Under the pieces are notes generated by a model, which saw only the letters and a program-made list of their open reading frames with translations, did no database searches and was not told the DNA's origin. Position numbers and translations under genes: made by a program. Positions 51,479 to 57,774 of a stretch of 64,000 nt of DNA are shown in pieces. Source of the DNA: Candidatus Bathyarchaeia archaeon (GTDB lineage Archaea > Thermoproteota > Bathyarchaeia > Bathyarchaeales > Bathycorpusculaceae). The stretch covers positions 1 to 64,000 of the forward strand of contig CP166960.1 in assembly GCA_041447175.1 (NCBI GenBank), written 5' to 3'. Each line of letters starts with the position of its first letter. Position 1 is the stretch's first letter.

Positions 51479-51637
51479 TTTGGCAACCCCTCCCATCATT
51501 AACCAATAAAAAAATCTGCAAACAGAATTTGCCCCCTACCCATAGAGCTACTCGAACTCATCCATGCCCGTTCTCGCTCTACACTTCATCTCTCCCTTCC
51601 ACCAAAACCCTAAAAACTGGGAGACGATGTTGATTCG

Positions 51638-51662
51638 TTGGGGGATGATGTTGCCGTCCCAG
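51638..51662 (+). repeat. Left attachment repeat (attL)
   Basis: TTGGGGGATGATGTTGCCGT followed by CCCAG; identical to 57098-57122. Preceding CTGGGAGACG (51618-51627) is an imperfect inverted match to CGTCCCAG at the right end of the repeat, giving an inverted-arm core as expected for a tyrosine recombinase site. Confidence 0.8.
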
Positions 51663-51764
51663 CCTTAGGGCAAAGTAAAATTTTCTGGAAGTTCTGATTC
51701 CTTATGCAGTTACTGTTGTCGCTAGTTATATGTTTTTTCTATCCTAACAAGAACATAGCTGGAA

Positions 51765-52376
51765 TTATGTTATCCCTTTTTTGGCTTTGAAATTTTTAAT
51801 TCTCATTGGTCTAACAAAGACTTCATCTAGAAATTCATCAGTAAATTGCAACACTTCATCAGCATCGGAAGGTGCAACTTCTTTTAGAGGATCTTTTTGT
51901 GGATGTGCGCCCCAATTGCCAATCATTCTTATTGTATGTGCCACATCTTTTAGTGTAGGATTAATTATCCTTCTATTGTATAAATCATCTATTTGGTTTA
52001 TCAGGTCAGAATTTGGAGCGCCATTTAGTGTACATGCATTTTGTAATGCCCTTCTGCATTGTGTAACTACCGCTTTAGATGCCAAAACGCCTCGGCATTT
52101 AATTGCTTCCAGATAATCATCAGCAACATCCTTGGGAATTGCTTGGTCTACATAAGGTACATTTTTGGGATAATAATCAACAATATCGTCTATCTCGATT
52201 GGGATAGTATGTTGATACTCGTCTGGAAAACACCTACTATCAGGCATCTGGAAATAAACACCTTTATCACAACCGTTACAAAATAAAACGAAGTCGTGAT
52301 TTGCGCCCTTTCCAAAAAAAGAGCATTTTGTTTTGCAATGCGGACACATAAAGGATTTAATATATAGTTTAGCCAT
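51765..52376 (-). CDS. DUF4145 protein with N-terminal zinc ribbon
   Basis: A 203-aa protein. FMCPHCKTKCSFFG and LFCNGCDKGVYFQM form a zinc ribbon; the C-terminal part (VVTQCRRALQNACTLNG, DVAHTIRMIGNWGAHPQ) has the DUF4145 pattern with RxxGNxxAH. Such domains occur in defence-associated and restriction-linked proteins. In this element it is the gene nearest attL and may be cargo. Confidence 0.75.
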   Translation of the reverse strand: MAKLYIKSFMCPHCKTKCSFFGKGANHDFVLFCNGCDKGVYFQMPDSRCFPDEYQHTIPIEIDDIVDYYPKNVPYVDQAIPKDVADDYLEAIKCRGVLASKAVVTQCRRALQNACTLNGAPNSDLINQIDDLYNRRIINPTLKDVAHTIRMIGNWGAHPQKDPLKEVAPSDADEVLQFTDEFLDEVFVRPMRIKNFKAKKGIT

Positions 52377-52587
52377 TTTTTCCCCTCATCACTGATTGCT
52401 ATCTTATATTGCGAGTTTTTATTAAATGTCTTTTTGGTAGCAGTATTACTAGCAAAAATCGGTAGGTTATTCTTCCGAAAAGTGGTCGTGAGAAAAAAGC
52501 GCTTCAAAAGTTAAACAGGTGCGGCTCTTTATTACTTCCGAAGAAGGTTTCTTATAGGCAATTAGGTATATATTGCTTTGAAGTTTA

Positions 52588-52857
52588 ATGTCAGTTGCAG
52601 AACTACTTCCCTTTGTAGGAGTCGTCTCACTTGCTATTGCATCAAGCGTTATAGTTTACCATTTTGGAAAATGGCGACAAAAGAACGACTCTGATAGAGA
52701 AGAAATGAGAAGGAAAATCGATGAACTTTGTTTAAAAGTCGATAAGATTCCAGAGGAGCTTTTGTCCAAATCAATTGACATGTATAAAATGTGGGAAAAG
52801 ATGAATGATGATTCCACGGTAAATAGTAAAAACAGGAAGCCTGTAGCAAATGAATAG
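52588..52857 (+). CDS. Small membrane protein of the element (1)
   Basis: An 89-aa protein: N-terminal helix (VGVVSLAIASSVIVYHF), then a charged helix (SDREEMRRKIDELCLKVDKI). ATG at 52588. It overlaps the next gene by 8 bp. No domain recognised; possibly a membrane-anchored coiled-coil partner. Confidence 0.55.
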   Translation: MSVAELLPFVGVVSLAIASSVIVYHFGKWRQKNDSDREEMRRKIDELCLKVDKIPEELLSKSIDMYKMWEKMNDDSTVNSKNRKPVANE

Positions 52858-53047
52858 CCGTAAGGATATGCTTCTTGAAAAAGCTAGGAGTCGGACAATA
52901 ACAGAAGCTGAAAGCAAGGAGCTTACACGTATTCTAGAAGAGGAAGCACGAATTGCTAAATCTAACGGAGACGTTTTGGGTGCAATCATAATATTGGGAC
53001 TTCTAGCCTTCTTAGGTGCGTTAGTTGCGGAACTTTTTACAGACTAA
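52850..53047 (+). CDS. Small tail-anchored protein of the element (2)
   Basis: A 65-aa protein: charged helices (ARSRTITEAESKELTRILEE) and a C-terminal membrane helix (GAIIILGLLAFLGALVAEL). Overlap with the preceding gene suggests joint translation. Confidence 0.5.
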   Translation: MNSRKDMLLEKARSRTITEAESKELTRILEEEARIAKSNGDVLGAIIILGLLAFLGALVAELFTD

Positions 53048-53228
53048 AATTTTTTCTAATTCGTTGACTAACTGAAAAAAGGTTCGTAAATAGGAAGATT
53101 TTTCCTCTTCCAAAAATAAGAAAAGTCTTTTATGTGTAATCGGCAGCAACCCTTGTGGTTGCTCGCTTCTAATATTTCCTCCTATGTACTCTCTTCTGCA
53201 TTCATGTCTACTGAGAATTTTTTAGGAG

Positions 53229-53347
53229 CCCCTCCCAAAGGAGGGGACGCCAACCCCCCGAGAGCGAAGCGAGGTGGGGAAGCTTTGGGTGCCCGAGTCT
53301 GGGAGGGTATGGGAACCTGAAGGTACACCCGAGGGGGTAGGTTGGCG
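53229..53347 (+). other. GC-rich folded region, candidate replication origin or structured RNA
   Basis: CCCCTCC (53229-53235) and GGAGGGG (53240-53246) form a 7-bp hairpin with a 4-nt loop. Next, CGCCAACC (53248-53255) is complementary to GGTTGGCG (53340-53347) and closes about 85 nt with further G/C-rich pairings (CCCC near 53256 with GGGG near 53276). It lies in an AT-rich gene-free interval (53048-53374), 0.6 kb before the Rep gene, where a double-strand origin or a small RNA could be. Confidence 0.5.
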
Positions 53348-53374
53348 CTGAATTGAAAAATTCTCCCCCATGGT

Positions 53375-53917
53375 TTATGTTTCTGACGACTGTTTATGCC
53401 CCTTCGAACCAGACCTTTTGAGACCTCTAAATACACCCTTCAGGCTAGCTTTGAGGCTATTCTGGTTTGCTTGCTCAATTAGTGCTGTCACTTTCTTTAG
53501 GTCAAGGTCATCAACGTTTTTTCCTGTTATGCGTATGGTTCTGGTTTCTTTCAGTTTATCAAGCGATATTTTGAAGATGTTGTCGGGGTCATCTATTTCT
53601 CCAAACATTCTGGCGGTGTCTTCTAAAAGCACCATCCTTTGCCAGTCGCTCTTGGGCAATGGAAGCTCGATTATGATTTCCTTCTCCAAGGGCTTAATTG
53701 TTTGTTCTCCCGTTTTTGCGAACCACTTCCCGTCATGGCTCTCGATTTTTCCCATCAGTTGCAAACTGGTAAGATATTTGTGAACGGTTGACCTGTGCTT
53801 GTCCAGTTTCTTCCCGATTTCAATGGCGCTTATTCCTCCTTTCGCGCTACTTTGTTGCACCAAACTGAAGCATTTGTCTAAGTTGTCCATTCTTTCATGG
53901 TCTTTTTTCATTGACAT
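53375..53917 (-). CDS. Winged-helix regulator divergent from Rep
   Basis: A 180-aa protein with helix-turn-helix GGISAIEIGKKLDKHRSTVH followed by KYLTSLQLMGKIESHDGKW (wing), a linker and a C-terminal helical part with TRIIRITGKN-like strand. It is divergent from rep with a 45-bp gap, the usual place of a copy-number or lysogeny-type repressor. ATG 53917 or 53911. Confidence 0.75.
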   Translation of the reverse strand: MSMKKDHERMDNLDKCFSLVQQSSAKGGISAIEIGKKLDKHRSTVHKYLTSLQLMGKIESHDGKWFAKTGEQTIKPLEKEIIIELPLPKSDWQRMVLLEDTARMFGEIDDPDNIFKISLDKLKETRTIRITGKNVDDLDLKKVTALIEQANQNSLKASLKGVFRGLKRSGSKGHKQSSET

Positions 53918-53962
53918 TGTCGCGACACAACCGCAAAATGGTGTTGTAGCTACTTATCTTTT

Positions 53963-55024
53963 GTGTTACAAATGCAAACGGTAGAAAATCAAGGCAGTTA
54001 CCGAGAAACGCTTGGAGATTATGACTTTAGTTCGGATGATGGAGTTCACGAAATTGACCTTCACAACGAGTTCTGGAGTCATGGCGAGTTTGAGCTTGTA
54101 GGGCATGGCGAGCGAACTAACAACCAATGCGGCAAGTTCAAGAAGTTTATGGGCTGCCTAAACATTGAGGGGCATAATCAAGCTAGGCATTTTCTGGGTA
54201 ACTTGCCTAAAGACTCAGTTTTCGTTAAGCCAATTTATCACTCGTGCGATAAGCCAACTTGCCCAATCTGCTTCAAATTTGGATGGGCGGTCAGAGAAGC
54301 CACGCGGATGGAGGCACGTTTACGGGAATCCTCCCATAGATACGGCTTAATCGAACATATTGTGGCGTCAGTTCCAGCGAAGCTATACGGACTGAACCTT
54401 GACCAGTTGCGGAAGGCAGCCGTCAAGGTCTTAGATAGTCGCGGAATCATCGGTGGTTCCATGATATTTCATGGCTTCAGATATGCCAACCGTAGGGAAG
54501 CTAAACGCAAAGGCGTTCCTTTCGGTTGGCGCTGGAACCCGCACTTTCACGTCTTGGGCTTTGTTGGCGGGGAAGGCTATGGTAAATGCCGAAAATGTAA
54601 AGGTGCAGATTGCTACACTTGCAAAGGTTTCGAAGGAATCACCAGAATTGAGAACAAGAAAGACGGGTGGGTCGTCAAAGTTTTAGAAAAACGCAAAACT
54701 GTGGGTGGAACATGCTGGTACCAGCTTAACCACTGCTCAATCCGTCGAGGTAAAAAGAAGTCTCATGCGGCAACTTGGTTTGGCGTTTGTAGCTACGGCA
54801 AACTCAAGCCGATTAACACTGAGGATGTTGGTATCCATACGTGTCCAATTTGCAACTCTAAGCTCGTTCAAATTCGATACTTGGGCAACTTTGCCGAGTT
54901 AGGACCAGTTTCTCGACGCGGCGAGGTGCTGAGCATGTTTGGCGCTGATGGCAAGCCCCTATGGGAGGTTGTGAAGGAAACAAAGTTTAGGAGGTATAGC
55001 GGAAGCTATGAATCGCCAATTTAG
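53963..55024 (+). CDS. rep: HUH-type rolling-circle replication initiator (Rep)
   Basis: A 353-aa protein. Motif 2 is WNPHFHVLGFV, with the HUH metal-binding histidines at HFH. Motif 3 is probably TCWYQLNHCSI with the nicking Tyr, followed by AATWFGVCSYGKLK, and motif 1 is HIVASVPAKLYG. Two zinc fingers are visible: CDKPTCPICF near the N-terminus and GKCRKCKGADCYTC in the middle, plus TCPICN near the C-terminus. These features match Rep proteins of archaeal rolling-circle plasmids. It starts rolling-circle replication by nicking the origin. Confidence 0.82.
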   Translation: MLQMQTVENQGSYRETLGDYDFSSDDGVHEIDLHNEFWSHGEFELVGHGERTNNQCGKFKKFMGCLNIEGHNQARHFLGNLPKDSVFVKPIYHSCDKPTCPICFKFGWAVREATRMEARLRESSHRYGLIEHIVASVPAKLYGLNLDQLRKAAVKVLDSRGIIGGSMIFHGFRYANRREAKRKGVPFGWRWNPHFHVLGFVGGEGYGKCRKCKGADCYTCKGFEGITRIENKKDGWVVKVLEKRKTVGGTCWYQLNHCSIRRGKKKSHAATWFGVCSYGKLKPINTEDVGIHTCPICNSKLVQIRYLGNFAELGPVSRRGEVLSMFGADGKPLWEVVKETKFRRYSGSYESPI

Positions 55025-55322
55025 ACGCAGAGTTGAGCGGGAATGGAACAAAATTAAACTGGGTGCTTCCTGTACAAAATTCATTGAGCAAAATAACCTG
55101 TTCACTATTCCCTACGTGATTTACTTTCAAGTGGTCAAAGTCAGTGACGATTTGATGTGCGTTTACAACGTGGGGTTGTTTCAGTTTAGAGACGGTTCCG
55201 GTTTTGCTAAACGTGTTACCATTTGTCACTACGTTAATAATCTCTTTAGAAGTTTGGGTTCTGTCGAACTTGGTTTTACTCCTGAAAATGAGCTTGAAGA
55301 AGGGGACGAACTTGACGCTTAG
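55008..55322 (+). CDS. Unknown protein downstream of Rep
   Basis: A 104-aa protein overlapping rep by 17 bp. It starts basic (NRQFRRRVEREWNKIKLG) and ends acidic (ENELEEGDELDA). No domain is recognised; position suggests a replication accessory. Confidence 0.55.
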   Translation: MNRQFRRRVEREWNKIKLGASCTKFIEQNNLFTIPYVIYFQVVKVSDDLMCVYNVGLFQFRDGSGFAKRVTICHYVNNLFRSLGSVELGFTPENELEEGDELDA

Positions 55323-55325
55323 TTT

Positions 55326-55475
55326 GTGCATCGTTTGGCTCTTGCGGAACATTCGGCAAACAAGGGAGCGACACGCGAGGCGGAAGCGAAGCGACGCCGA
55401 GCGTTTGCGAGGAATTACTGGGCTGAACGTTGGCTTGTGAAACTTGATAAAGCCAGCTCAAATATTATTAGGTGA
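55326..55475 (+). CDS. Possible small basic protein
   Basis: A 49-aa frame with GTG start right after the preceding stop: EAEAKRRRAFARNYWAERW is strongly basic and helical. Coding status is uncertain because it has no clear ribosome-binding site and two alternative frames are also open. Confidence 0.3.
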   Translation: MHRLALAEHSANKGATREAEAKRRRAFARNYWAERWLVKLDKASSNIIR

Positions 55476-55510
55476 AGGAGGGAAGGGTTTTCCATTCTAA
55501 AGGAGAGTCG

Positions 55511-56080
55511 ATGTACAGCAAACTGTTAAAAGAGTATGGGGTTAGCAAGCGTGTAAGTGACGTTTTGTTTTTTGTTTTTCTTGATGATGAATTAGAAAAG
55601 TACCTTCCGCTCTTCAGACAAGCTGTTAAACAACCTATTAGCTTGAAGCCGTTTATTTCCGAGTTGCAGAAAGAACTTAACACTGGTGCCTTTAGTCACA
55701 CGACAAGTGCAATGTACCATTTCCTTGCAACCGATGACAATTTTGGAATTTTTACAAGAGACTACGTGAGGCGCTGCTGTGACATGGTGGAATATATTAC
55801 TAAGCGTAAAGTTGCGCCTAAGTTACGGCTTGAGTCTGAGGTTGAAAAAAAGCCTCTTGGACGCGTCATTGGCTTATTTAATAGACAAAACGCTAGACAC
55901 TTTCCTAATGGCTTGCTTGAAGCACTGGCTCAATTCAACGAAGTGATTTACTGTCCAGCTAAGCATGAACATGTTACTAGCGAGGAGAGTCGAATGTTTA
56001 GCGTTGCCGATGCGATTGCTGTTACTTTTATAACCGTGCGTTTATGCCAACAGTTAGACGATTTTCAACGGAAGTATTGA
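55511..56080 (+). CDS. Unknown helical protein of the element
   Basis: A 189-aa protein from ATG 55511 after AAAGGAGAG. Helical throughout (YSKLLKEYGVSKRVSDVLFF, EVEKKPLGRVIGLFNRQNAR); no known domain. Convergent with the integrase gene. Confidence 0.6.
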   Translation: MYSKLLKEYGVSKRVSDVLFFVFLDDELEKYLPLFRQAVKQPISLKPFISELQKELNTGAFSHTTSAMYHFLATDDNFGIFTRDYVRRCCDMVEYITKRKVAPKLRLESEVEKKPLGRVIGLFNRQNARHFPNGLLEALAQFNEVIYCPAKHEHVTSEESRMFSVADAIAVTFITVRLCQQLDDFQRKY

Positions 56081-56115
56081 AGTTGATACCAGAAAAATCG
56101 CTGAAAGTGTGGGGG

Positions 56116-57039
56116 TTATGCTGGTTTTTTGAAGTATGTTATTCCATCTGCTTGGCACACGAGTATGCAGTCGTCTTTGATGGCTTGTTCAATTTCTTCT
56201 TTCGTTCTGCAAACAACTGGAATCCATGTGCTTGATGCTTCATCAAATAGGCTGATGTAGTGTTCGGTCTGGTTGGCATGTTTGTGCCCTAGCATTTGCT
56301 TAACAAATAGTAGGCTCTTTGTTTGGTGGTAAGCCTTAGAACCACTAAACCGTCTAAAGTCGTACAATTGAATCTGCTTCAGTTCTGGTTTATCGTACTT
56401 TTTAGCTATGAGGTTTCTGCAATGGCGATAATTATTTCCAAAGTTCTCGCTTGTTGTCTTAAAGAGGCTGTCATTAGCGCCTAGACGCTTGTTAATGATG
56501 TAGGTTTTTAAAAGCTCTAACGATTTAGTTCTAAGCTTTCCTTCACGCCCGATTGTATGTTTCGCGCCTGTGATTGATACAATTCCTGTTGCTAAATCGA
56601 TGTCTCTAAGCTTTAGCCACGTTAGCTCAATTGGTCGTGTTCCTAAATCCTTACTCATCGAAAGTTTAACACTCATTTCAATTCTTGCATGATTAATCAA
56701 AAAATCAACTAATTCTTCTTTGGGGGCTTTACGTTTCTTGCTGTAGCGTGGATAAAATGGCTGTTGCCATTTTGCGTCAACTGATTTGACAAAGCAAGTA
56801 TAAGCTTCGATAAGGTTCTGTTTGTGACCGTTGGAGACTTTGCGTTTTCCTATGTGAAGTTTTACTGCTTCGGGGTCTGAAGTGTCACAGCTTCTTTCCA
56901 AATTTCTCAGGAGCTTGGCTACTTTTCTAACTGTGGTTTCCTCGTAGCCATTTTTTGTCATCCATAACATGACGTTTGTTATGTTCATCTTTCCGAGTTG
57001 AGTAGGGCTTTTTTGGGTTTGTTCAAGTTTTTGTTTCAT
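56116..57039 (-). CDS. int: Tyrosine recombinase/integrase
   Basis: A 307-aa protein with N-terminal SAM-like helices (ITNVMLWMTKNGYEETTVR) and a C-terminal catalytic domain. The catalytic residues are Arg in DLGTRPIELTWLK, Arg in the YDFRRFSG motif (Y replaces the usual His before FRR), His in MLGHKHANQTEHY and the nucleophile Tyr in EHYISLF. The start lies 59 bp from attR. It would integrate the element at the 25-bp repeat. Confidence 0.85.
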   Translation of the reverse strand: MKQKLEQTQKSPTQLGKMNITNVMLWMTKNGYEETTVRKVAKLLRNLERSCDTSDPEAVKLHIGKRKVSNGHKQNLIEAYTCFVKSVDAKWQQPFYPRYSKKRKAPKEELVDFLINHARIEMSVKLSMSKDLGTRPIELTWLKLRDIDLATGIVSITGAKHTIGREGKLRTKSLELLKTYIINKRLGANDSLFKTTSENFGNNYRHCRNLIAKKYDKPELKQIQLYDFRRFSGSKAYHQTKSLLFVKQMLGHKHANQTEHYISLFDEASSTWIPVVCRTKEEIEQAIKDDCILVCQADGITYFKKPA

Positions 57040-57097
57040 TGTTTTATTTCCTCCTTTTTCGCAGAGCCCTTTTATTCAACTGGGACGACTGTTACCC

Positions 57098-57122
57098 TTG
57101 GGGGATGATGTTGCCGTCCCAG
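57098..57122 (+). repeat. Right attachment repeat (attR)
   Basis: Identical to 51638-51662. CTGGGACG (57080-57087) is a perfect inverted match to CGTCCCAG (57115-57122), so the core site is a 43-bp hairpin-like region. Confidence 0.8.
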
Positions 57123-57200
57123 TCTGATTGGGAAAGATGACGAACAACAGGCGCAGACCCCAAATATTAAATTTAAAACACTTCCCATTATTTGGAATTA

Positions 57201-57774
57201 ATGGGAGGACGCGTATCTGGGACCCAGTAGCGAATACCAATGTGAAAAATGCCGCAAAGTATTCTCAAGTACCGATTTGGGGTCAAACAAATTTTGTCCT
57301 ACTTGTAAAAGTAATCTTACACCGCATCTTCCATCGAAATACTGGATGTTCCAATTCAACCCTGAAACTTACGATTGGTTTGGCTGGATTCGCTCAAAGC
57401 CAGAAACCGAGCAGTGGTTAACAAGTCGGTATATTAGATTTATCTGCAAAGATGACAAGGCAGTTATTTGGTGCTCAGGTGAAAATGGGGGAATACTTGC
57501 GATGGGTCTGGTAACAACATATCCACAAAAGAGCGCTCTTGCTCCAGAACAAGCATTACATTACCGAAAAAAAGATGATGTGATGAAATTTTTGAAAAAG
57601 CCCAGTGTCATCATAAAATACACAAAATTATTCGTTGACAGACCAATTCTTCAAGATAAATGTCGAAAGGACAAAATTCTTTCATCTATGGATGTATTCA
57701 AGAATCCTGAAGGAACTAACTTTAAAATAGCAAAAAAACATTGGAATAGAATTATAGATTTAAATGATGTTTGA
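57201..57774 (+). pseudogene. EVE-domain protein with a zinc ribbon; start codon out of frame
   Basis: The frame open from 57202 reads EYQCEKCRKVFSS and FCPTCKS (zinc ribbon), then an EVE domain (YWMFQFNPETYDWFGWI, DDKAVIWCSGENGGILAMGLV). EVE domains read modified bases in DNA or RNA. The only ATG is at 57201, one frame off; dropping one G from ATGGGAGG would give MEDAYLGPSS and the whole protein. A shorter form from TTG 57277 loses the first CxxC. It lies right behind attR, so its 5' region may also have been altered by the element. Confidence 0.65.

Follow-up and report, generated by a model that had tools for sequence, protein, structure and literature searches.

A putative rolling-circle plasmid-like element of Bathyarchaeia predicted to occupy the 5' part of a C/D box sRNA gene

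tRNA genes are considered preferred sites of integration because a 7-nt loop between symmetric stems looks like the core site of an integrase (PMC8371274). The locus described here raises the question of what serves as target when an element is bounded by repeats that belong to no tRNA gene. It lies in a 64-kb window (the whole stretch of DNA that was analyzed, within which coordinates are given) of the 2.73-Mb, single-contig genome of a Candidatus Bathyarchaeia archaeon. A first-pass annotation had proposed a plasmid-like element integrated there between 25-bp direct repeats, in an intergenic site. Judged from its sequence, the 5.5-kb segment between the repeats is a bathyarchaeal plasmid-like element, of the putative rolling-circle type, that has integrated into the chromosome. 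The attachment (att) site is read here, instead of as intergenic, as the 5' part of a conserved host C/D box small RNA (sRNA) gene, whose 5' end is the point of entry. Insertion of such an element by its integrase into the 5' part of the sRNA gene is considered highly probable because of the repeats, the genes carried by the element, the presence of the sRNA where it is inserted, an unoccupied site in a genome of the same genus and the use of this target by one integrase clade.

Boundaries of the element and empty sites

The two repeats are identical over 25 bp, as annotated, and match at 27 of 28 positions when lengthened. They are the only copies in the whole genome at up to three mismatches (a reversed control pattern gave 0 matches), and the chance of a perfect 25-bp pair in 64 kb of random sequence is, by our estimate, about 2e-6. 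No tRNA overlaps either repeat, in agreement with the annotation, and a tRNA gene as att site was rejected on this ground. The annotated gene content was likewise recovered. The repeats enclose open reading frames (ORFs) for a tyrosine integrase, a HUH-type Rep and a divergent helix-turn-helix (HTH) regulator, recognized respectively by a Phage_integrase match, the motifs PHFH and YQLNH and an HTH match, together with other proteins (Table 1). As in tyrosine-integrase elements, the integrase gene lies inside and adjoins an att repeat, direct repeats are present at both ends and the site is empty in relatives.

The empty site was found in G128, a genome of the same genus. An intact sRNA gene is located there between homologues of the genes on the left (49549, 50677 and 50877) and on the right (58218 and 58611) of the element, and nothing at this locus matched the element's Rep or integrase. 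G131 and G132 also carry a single intact sRNA gene with no integrase beside it. Many relatives do hold the repeat sequence without the element, which does not by itself count against the annotation, since they hold it as a single-copy empty attB.

A search of other archaeal genomes, suggested by the annotation, recovered Rep relatives in 24 of the 257 genomes of the class Bathyarchaeia. In named records they were found in Candidatus Bathyarchaeota, plus three distant ones in Thaumarchaeota. For many of these relatives the integrase gene is convergent with rep and the pair is bounded by a direct repeat, and the same repeat core delimits elements in G139, G098, G125 and G093. An integrated element with att repeats is thus well supported, both by relatives whose boundaries match and by the unoccupied site of G128. 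A second Rep-integrase element is present in the host genome at about 502144-507760 (L063), with 29-bp repeats in a tRNA-Leu(CAA) gene and a Rep 43-44% identical to that of the window.

The predicted C/D box sRNA at the attachment site

The two copies of the core differ in what follows them. The right one continues into boxes D', C' and D and a CCCC that pairs with the GGGG at the start of the gene; the left one enters element sequence. The spacer between box C and box D' is 12 nt long in the window, archaeal guides being 10-12 nt long (PMC7994747), and boxes C and D have the potential to fold into a kink-turn. Among 83 distinct intact copies of the sRNA, box D' follows exactly after a 12-nt spacer in 68 and all four stem pairs are present in 65. 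The alternative terminal stems GCGG/CCGC, GGCG/CGCC, CGGG/CCCG and TGGG/CCCA represent compensatory changes, with a modest result in a shuffle test on the 18 stems other than GGGG (570/20000). The guide GCCGUCCCAG is identical in 83/83 copies, an invariance that the search pattern itself favors, since no more than two mismatches are tolerated by it. In an Rfam search, three of the homologues fetched outside the class match snoPyro_CD at E <0.001, the best with 37.2 bits (E 5.2e-5), below the cut-off of 45, and the remaining matches, among those listed, are also to C/D box families. The C/D families of Rfam are built per guide, and a score under the cut-off is therefore no bar to C/D membership.

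The distribution of the sRNA was followed with the pattern CTGGGACGGCNNCATCATCCCCC at up to two mismatches. It occurs in 107 genomes of the class set (257 genomes), in exactly one copy in 92 of them as counted from the table of matches, versus 2 genomes for the reversed pattern, and in 100 genomes of a Thermoproteota set (397 genomes). The sRNA is present with or without the element and is usually single-copy. Box D is CAGA in most Bathyarchaeia and mostly CUGA or CCGA at 20 sites fetched outside the class. By this distribution, the sRNA belongs to an ancient family (homologues e.g. L248 and L263) conserved across Thermoproteota without Rfam coverage above the cut-off, to which the present locus is a pointer. 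The second guide of many of its relatives (CUCAUGACGG) can pair with host 23S rRNA at CCGUCGUGAG. As for tRNA targets of the invariant guide, tRNA-Pro(GGG) pairs with it over 8 bp only, and the candidate CTGGGACGGC elsewhere in the genome was discarded, as it falls in no tRNA found.

Integrase specificity and predicted recombination

In a tree of 44 integrase rows, the integrases at the sRNA (nine/nine) form one clade with 97/96 support and no other row within. They share conserved Arg and Lys residues, YDFRR, LGHK and a C-terminal Tyr. The other integrases of the comparison have their sites in tRNA genes or in the gene for RNase P RNA. The latter gene (Rfam RF00373) was found at eight integrase loci (L045, L046, L047, L050, L051, L053, L056 and L061) and the direct repeats of L073 and L074 match its 3' end; these matches place a neighboring integrase group of Bathyarchaeia at the 3' end of that gene. 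The RNA has its 3' end toward the integrase in L063, the tRNA case looked at in detail, and in RNase P cases, L045 among them, whereas the sRNA has its 5' end toward it.

The integrase is predicted to recombine attP of the circular element with attB, the 5' part of the sRNA gene. Strand exchange would take place in a 7-bp overlap, ATGNNGC, between imperfect inverted half-sites, GGGGGATG (terminal stem and box C of the sRNA) and CGTCCCAG (guide). Hosts vary at two positions of this overlap, and both ends agree in most copy pairs inspected. The inverted arms announced by the annotation were found at the right end (CTGGGACG at 57080, CGTCCCAG at 57115); at the left the outer arm is degenerate (CTGGGAGACG). 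At most integrase-adjoining sites an arm like CTGGGAYG begins about 21 bp before the core. It is absent from most integrase-free sites, the exceptions including L105, L108 and L126, which may be relics. Several elements also share a far arm, CCTTAGGGCAAAGTAA, and both arms are candidate integrase arm sites. The excised circle is expected to carry the junction CTGGGACGACTGTTACCC-core-CCTTAGGGCAAAG and would then undergo Rep-driven rolling-circle replication.

Entry at the 5' end means that the element supplies the region upstream of the sRNA gene. Between -36 and -24 (near -28), a TATA-like box was observed at 14/16 occupied and 27/33 empty sites, in lists hand-picked by us, versus 0.19 of random window positions. 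The element thus appears to bring its own sRNA promoter. The promoter of the integrase-side arm would replace the one upstream of the sRNA, and integration probably keeps the intact sRNA expressed from this element-borne promoter, while the displaced host promoter would read into the truncated sRNA copy at the far end. According to work cited in PMC7994747, maturation of a C/D box sRNA can remain unaffected when the sequence upstream of its gene is altered, which fits the tolerance of a 5' insertion. Expression, excision and recombination are inferred from the sequence. Because of the entry at the 5' end, a promoter takeover with further consequences can be imagined: integration and excision might switch the level or timing of a conserved guide RNA, and the arm shared by the sRNA and the divergent integrase gene might couple mobility to the host RNA-modification machinery. 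This idea is tentative and rather doubtful.

Alternatives, known systems and gene content

Several results weigh against an sRNA gene occupied by a mobile element. The window sRNA resembles archaeal C/D box sRNAs in its length of about 60 nt, its boxes C, D', C' and D, its guides of 10-12 nt and its terminal kink-turn stem, but it differs from them (PMC7994747) by having no orthologous Rfam family at the cut-off (18.6 bits to snoPyro_CD, under 45), a box D reading CAGA rather than CUGA and a guide without clear target, no convincing one having been found in rRNA for the invariant guide. In G130, the two core copies differ in the overlap. The search for free or viral forms found no Rep or integrase relative and no exact core in viral contigs, and phage and plasmid records gave no Rep match.

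The lack of a free form would also be expected of a decayed relic whose mobility is lost, and relics do exist at the same sRNA site elsewhere, namely a remnant in G130 and an element with an interrupted integrase in G093. A relic is nevertheless unlikely in the window: the reading frames of integrase and rep are uninterrupted, the two att copies match perfectly and close relatives vary in occupancy. Additionally, the contigs L096 (G125:C5), G145:C18 and L113 (G056:C2) start or end at the att core or a few bases from it, which would fit mixed site occupancy in the sampled population without proving it.

The replication protein bears on the nature of the element. Rep and its 27 homologues have invariant PHFH and YQLNH motifs (H194, H196 and Y253) and many conserved cysteines. 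Pfam Rep_1 weakly matched 6 of the 27 homologues (best 1.4e-4), the window Rep by itself giving no family match. A model built from the homologues reached a pLDDT (predicted local distance difference test) of 78.7, versus 30 for a single-sequence model. It matched small viral proteins among predicted folds, up to 4.3e-8, and no solved structure in the PDB. The invariant motifs, the Rep_1 matches of the homologues and the viral fold matches make HUH rolling-circle initiation by this protein likely, not proven. The HUH and tyrosine motifs are common to Rep_1, other HUH initiators and Rep-Arvir (PMC13107129), any kinship with the last being tentative; the window Rep differs from these by its extra conserved cysteines and the lack of a family match of its own. 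The viral folds, together with hydrophobic stretches in two small proteins, could point to a small provirus and not a plasmid, but this is very unlikely given that no structural or virion protein was recognized among the element ORFs in Pfam or PHROGs searches and that searches of viral contigs found no relative. Finally, a conserved DNA element with no RNA gene, e.g. a dif-like chromosome-dimer resolution site exploited by the element, would likewise be usually single-copy, with inverted arms and bound by a tyrosine recombinase, but it is most improbable here as such a site would not need conservation past the core, where boxes D', C' and D and a pairing stem are preserved, a TATA-like box at the expected distance or homologues that match C/D sRNA models.

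A plasmid-like element integrated in a C/D box sRNA gene has much in common with archaeal integrative plasmids and islands that have classical tyrosine integrases: an undivided integrase gene beside one att, a core with inverted half-sites around the overlap, as in tRNA anticodon stem-loops, and a target gene left intact at one end (PMC8371274). It is set apart by its target, a C/D box sRNA gene that it enters through the 5' end. PMC8371274 names intergenic sites as well as tRNA and protein genes as targets, and the terms sRNA, small RNA and non-coding are absent from it. Compared with known archaeal C/D box sRNAs (PMC7994747), the role as attachment site is a further difference. The cryptic integrated elements of Thaumarchaeota are likewise small, at least one having a rolling-circle Rep, and in one of them, CalSub-E1, recombination involved the 5' region of a tRNA gene; they differ in their reported targets, which comprise tRNA genes, the 3' portions of protein genes and intergenic regions (PMC6563490). 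In the literature searched, many journals lying outside it, we found no account of an integrase that targets C/D box sRNA or RNase P RNA genes, and the locus is provisionally regarded as a novel attachment-site class used by an element of known type. The use of a similarly symmetric C/D box sRNA gene by one integrase clade would extend the explanation proposed for tRNA sites to another class of archaeal RNA. Target-class switching inside one integrase family (tRNA, RNase P RNA, sRNA) can be put to the test here, and the locus provides exact boundaries for locating such elements across Bathyarchaeia.

Table 1. Predicted features of the integrated element and its attachment site (window coordinates)
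Feature	Position	Strand	Evidence and remarks
Outer left flank	51585-51637		TATA-like CTAAAAA; degenerate arm CTGGGAGACG; possible leftover start codon
Left att core	51638-51662	+	Far end of element; truncated sRNA 5' part (box C and guide only); perfect repeat of right core; continues into element sequence CCTTAGGGCAAAG
Far-end arm CCTTAGGGCAAAGTAAAATTTT	51663-51684	+	Candidate integrase arm site; same arm beside core in several other elements or relics
DUF4145 protein, 203 aa	51765-52376	-	Pfam DUF4145 4.5e-17; PADLOC PD-T7-4 6e-9
Small protein, 89 aa	52588-52857	+	ORF; N-terminal hydrophobic stretch; no significant family match
Small protein, 65 aa	52850-53047	+	ORF; C-terminal hydrophobic stretch; no family match
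HTH regulator, 180 aa	53375-53917	-	HTH_11 8.1e-5; divergent from rep
Rep, putative HUH rolling-circle initiator, 353 aa	53963-55024	+	PHFH and YQLNH motifs
104-aa protein	55008-55322	+	Overlaps rep end; homologues after rep in G139, G098, G092
189-aa protein	55512-56080	+	ORF; no family match; no relative in fetched elements
Tyrosine integrase, 307 aa	56116-57039	-	Phage_integrase 2.5e-8
Integrase-side arm	57040-57097	+	TATA-like CCTTTTATT 57068-57076; CTGGGACG 57080-57087; element-supplied sRNA upstream region
Right att core	57098-57122	+	5' part of intact sRNA gene
Intact host C/D box sRNA	57100-57161	+	Boxes, guide, stem; conserved homologues; weak snoPyro_CD match 57101-57160
sRNA, 5' parts	57100-57123	+	Sequence: stem GGGG 57100-57103; box C region 57105-57111; guide UGCCGUCCCAGU 57112-57123
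sRNA, 3' parts	57124-57161	+	Sequence: D' CUGA 57124-57127; C' 57137-57143; D CAGA 57154-57157; stem CCCC 57158-57161

Among the remaining genes, the 189-aa gene exists as annotated, and the 203-aa product, contrary to the annotation, is a DUF4145 protein. The latter may be defense cargo because it matches the candidate anti-phage model PD-T7-4. Homologues of the HTH regulator are found beside rep in several relatives, with 51-60% identity. The outer left flank, core included, is 92.5% identical over 40 bp to G130 and 87.5% identical over 64 bp to G098. Its resemblance to the integrase-side arm of other elements suggests repeated use of the site, and the flank is probably a relic of an earlier occupant, although tblastn revealed no convincing integrase remnant in it. 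Outside the right repeat, an EVE-domain gene (57217-57774) is also missing at the empty site of G128, which we take to be a separate second insertion or deletion at the locus.

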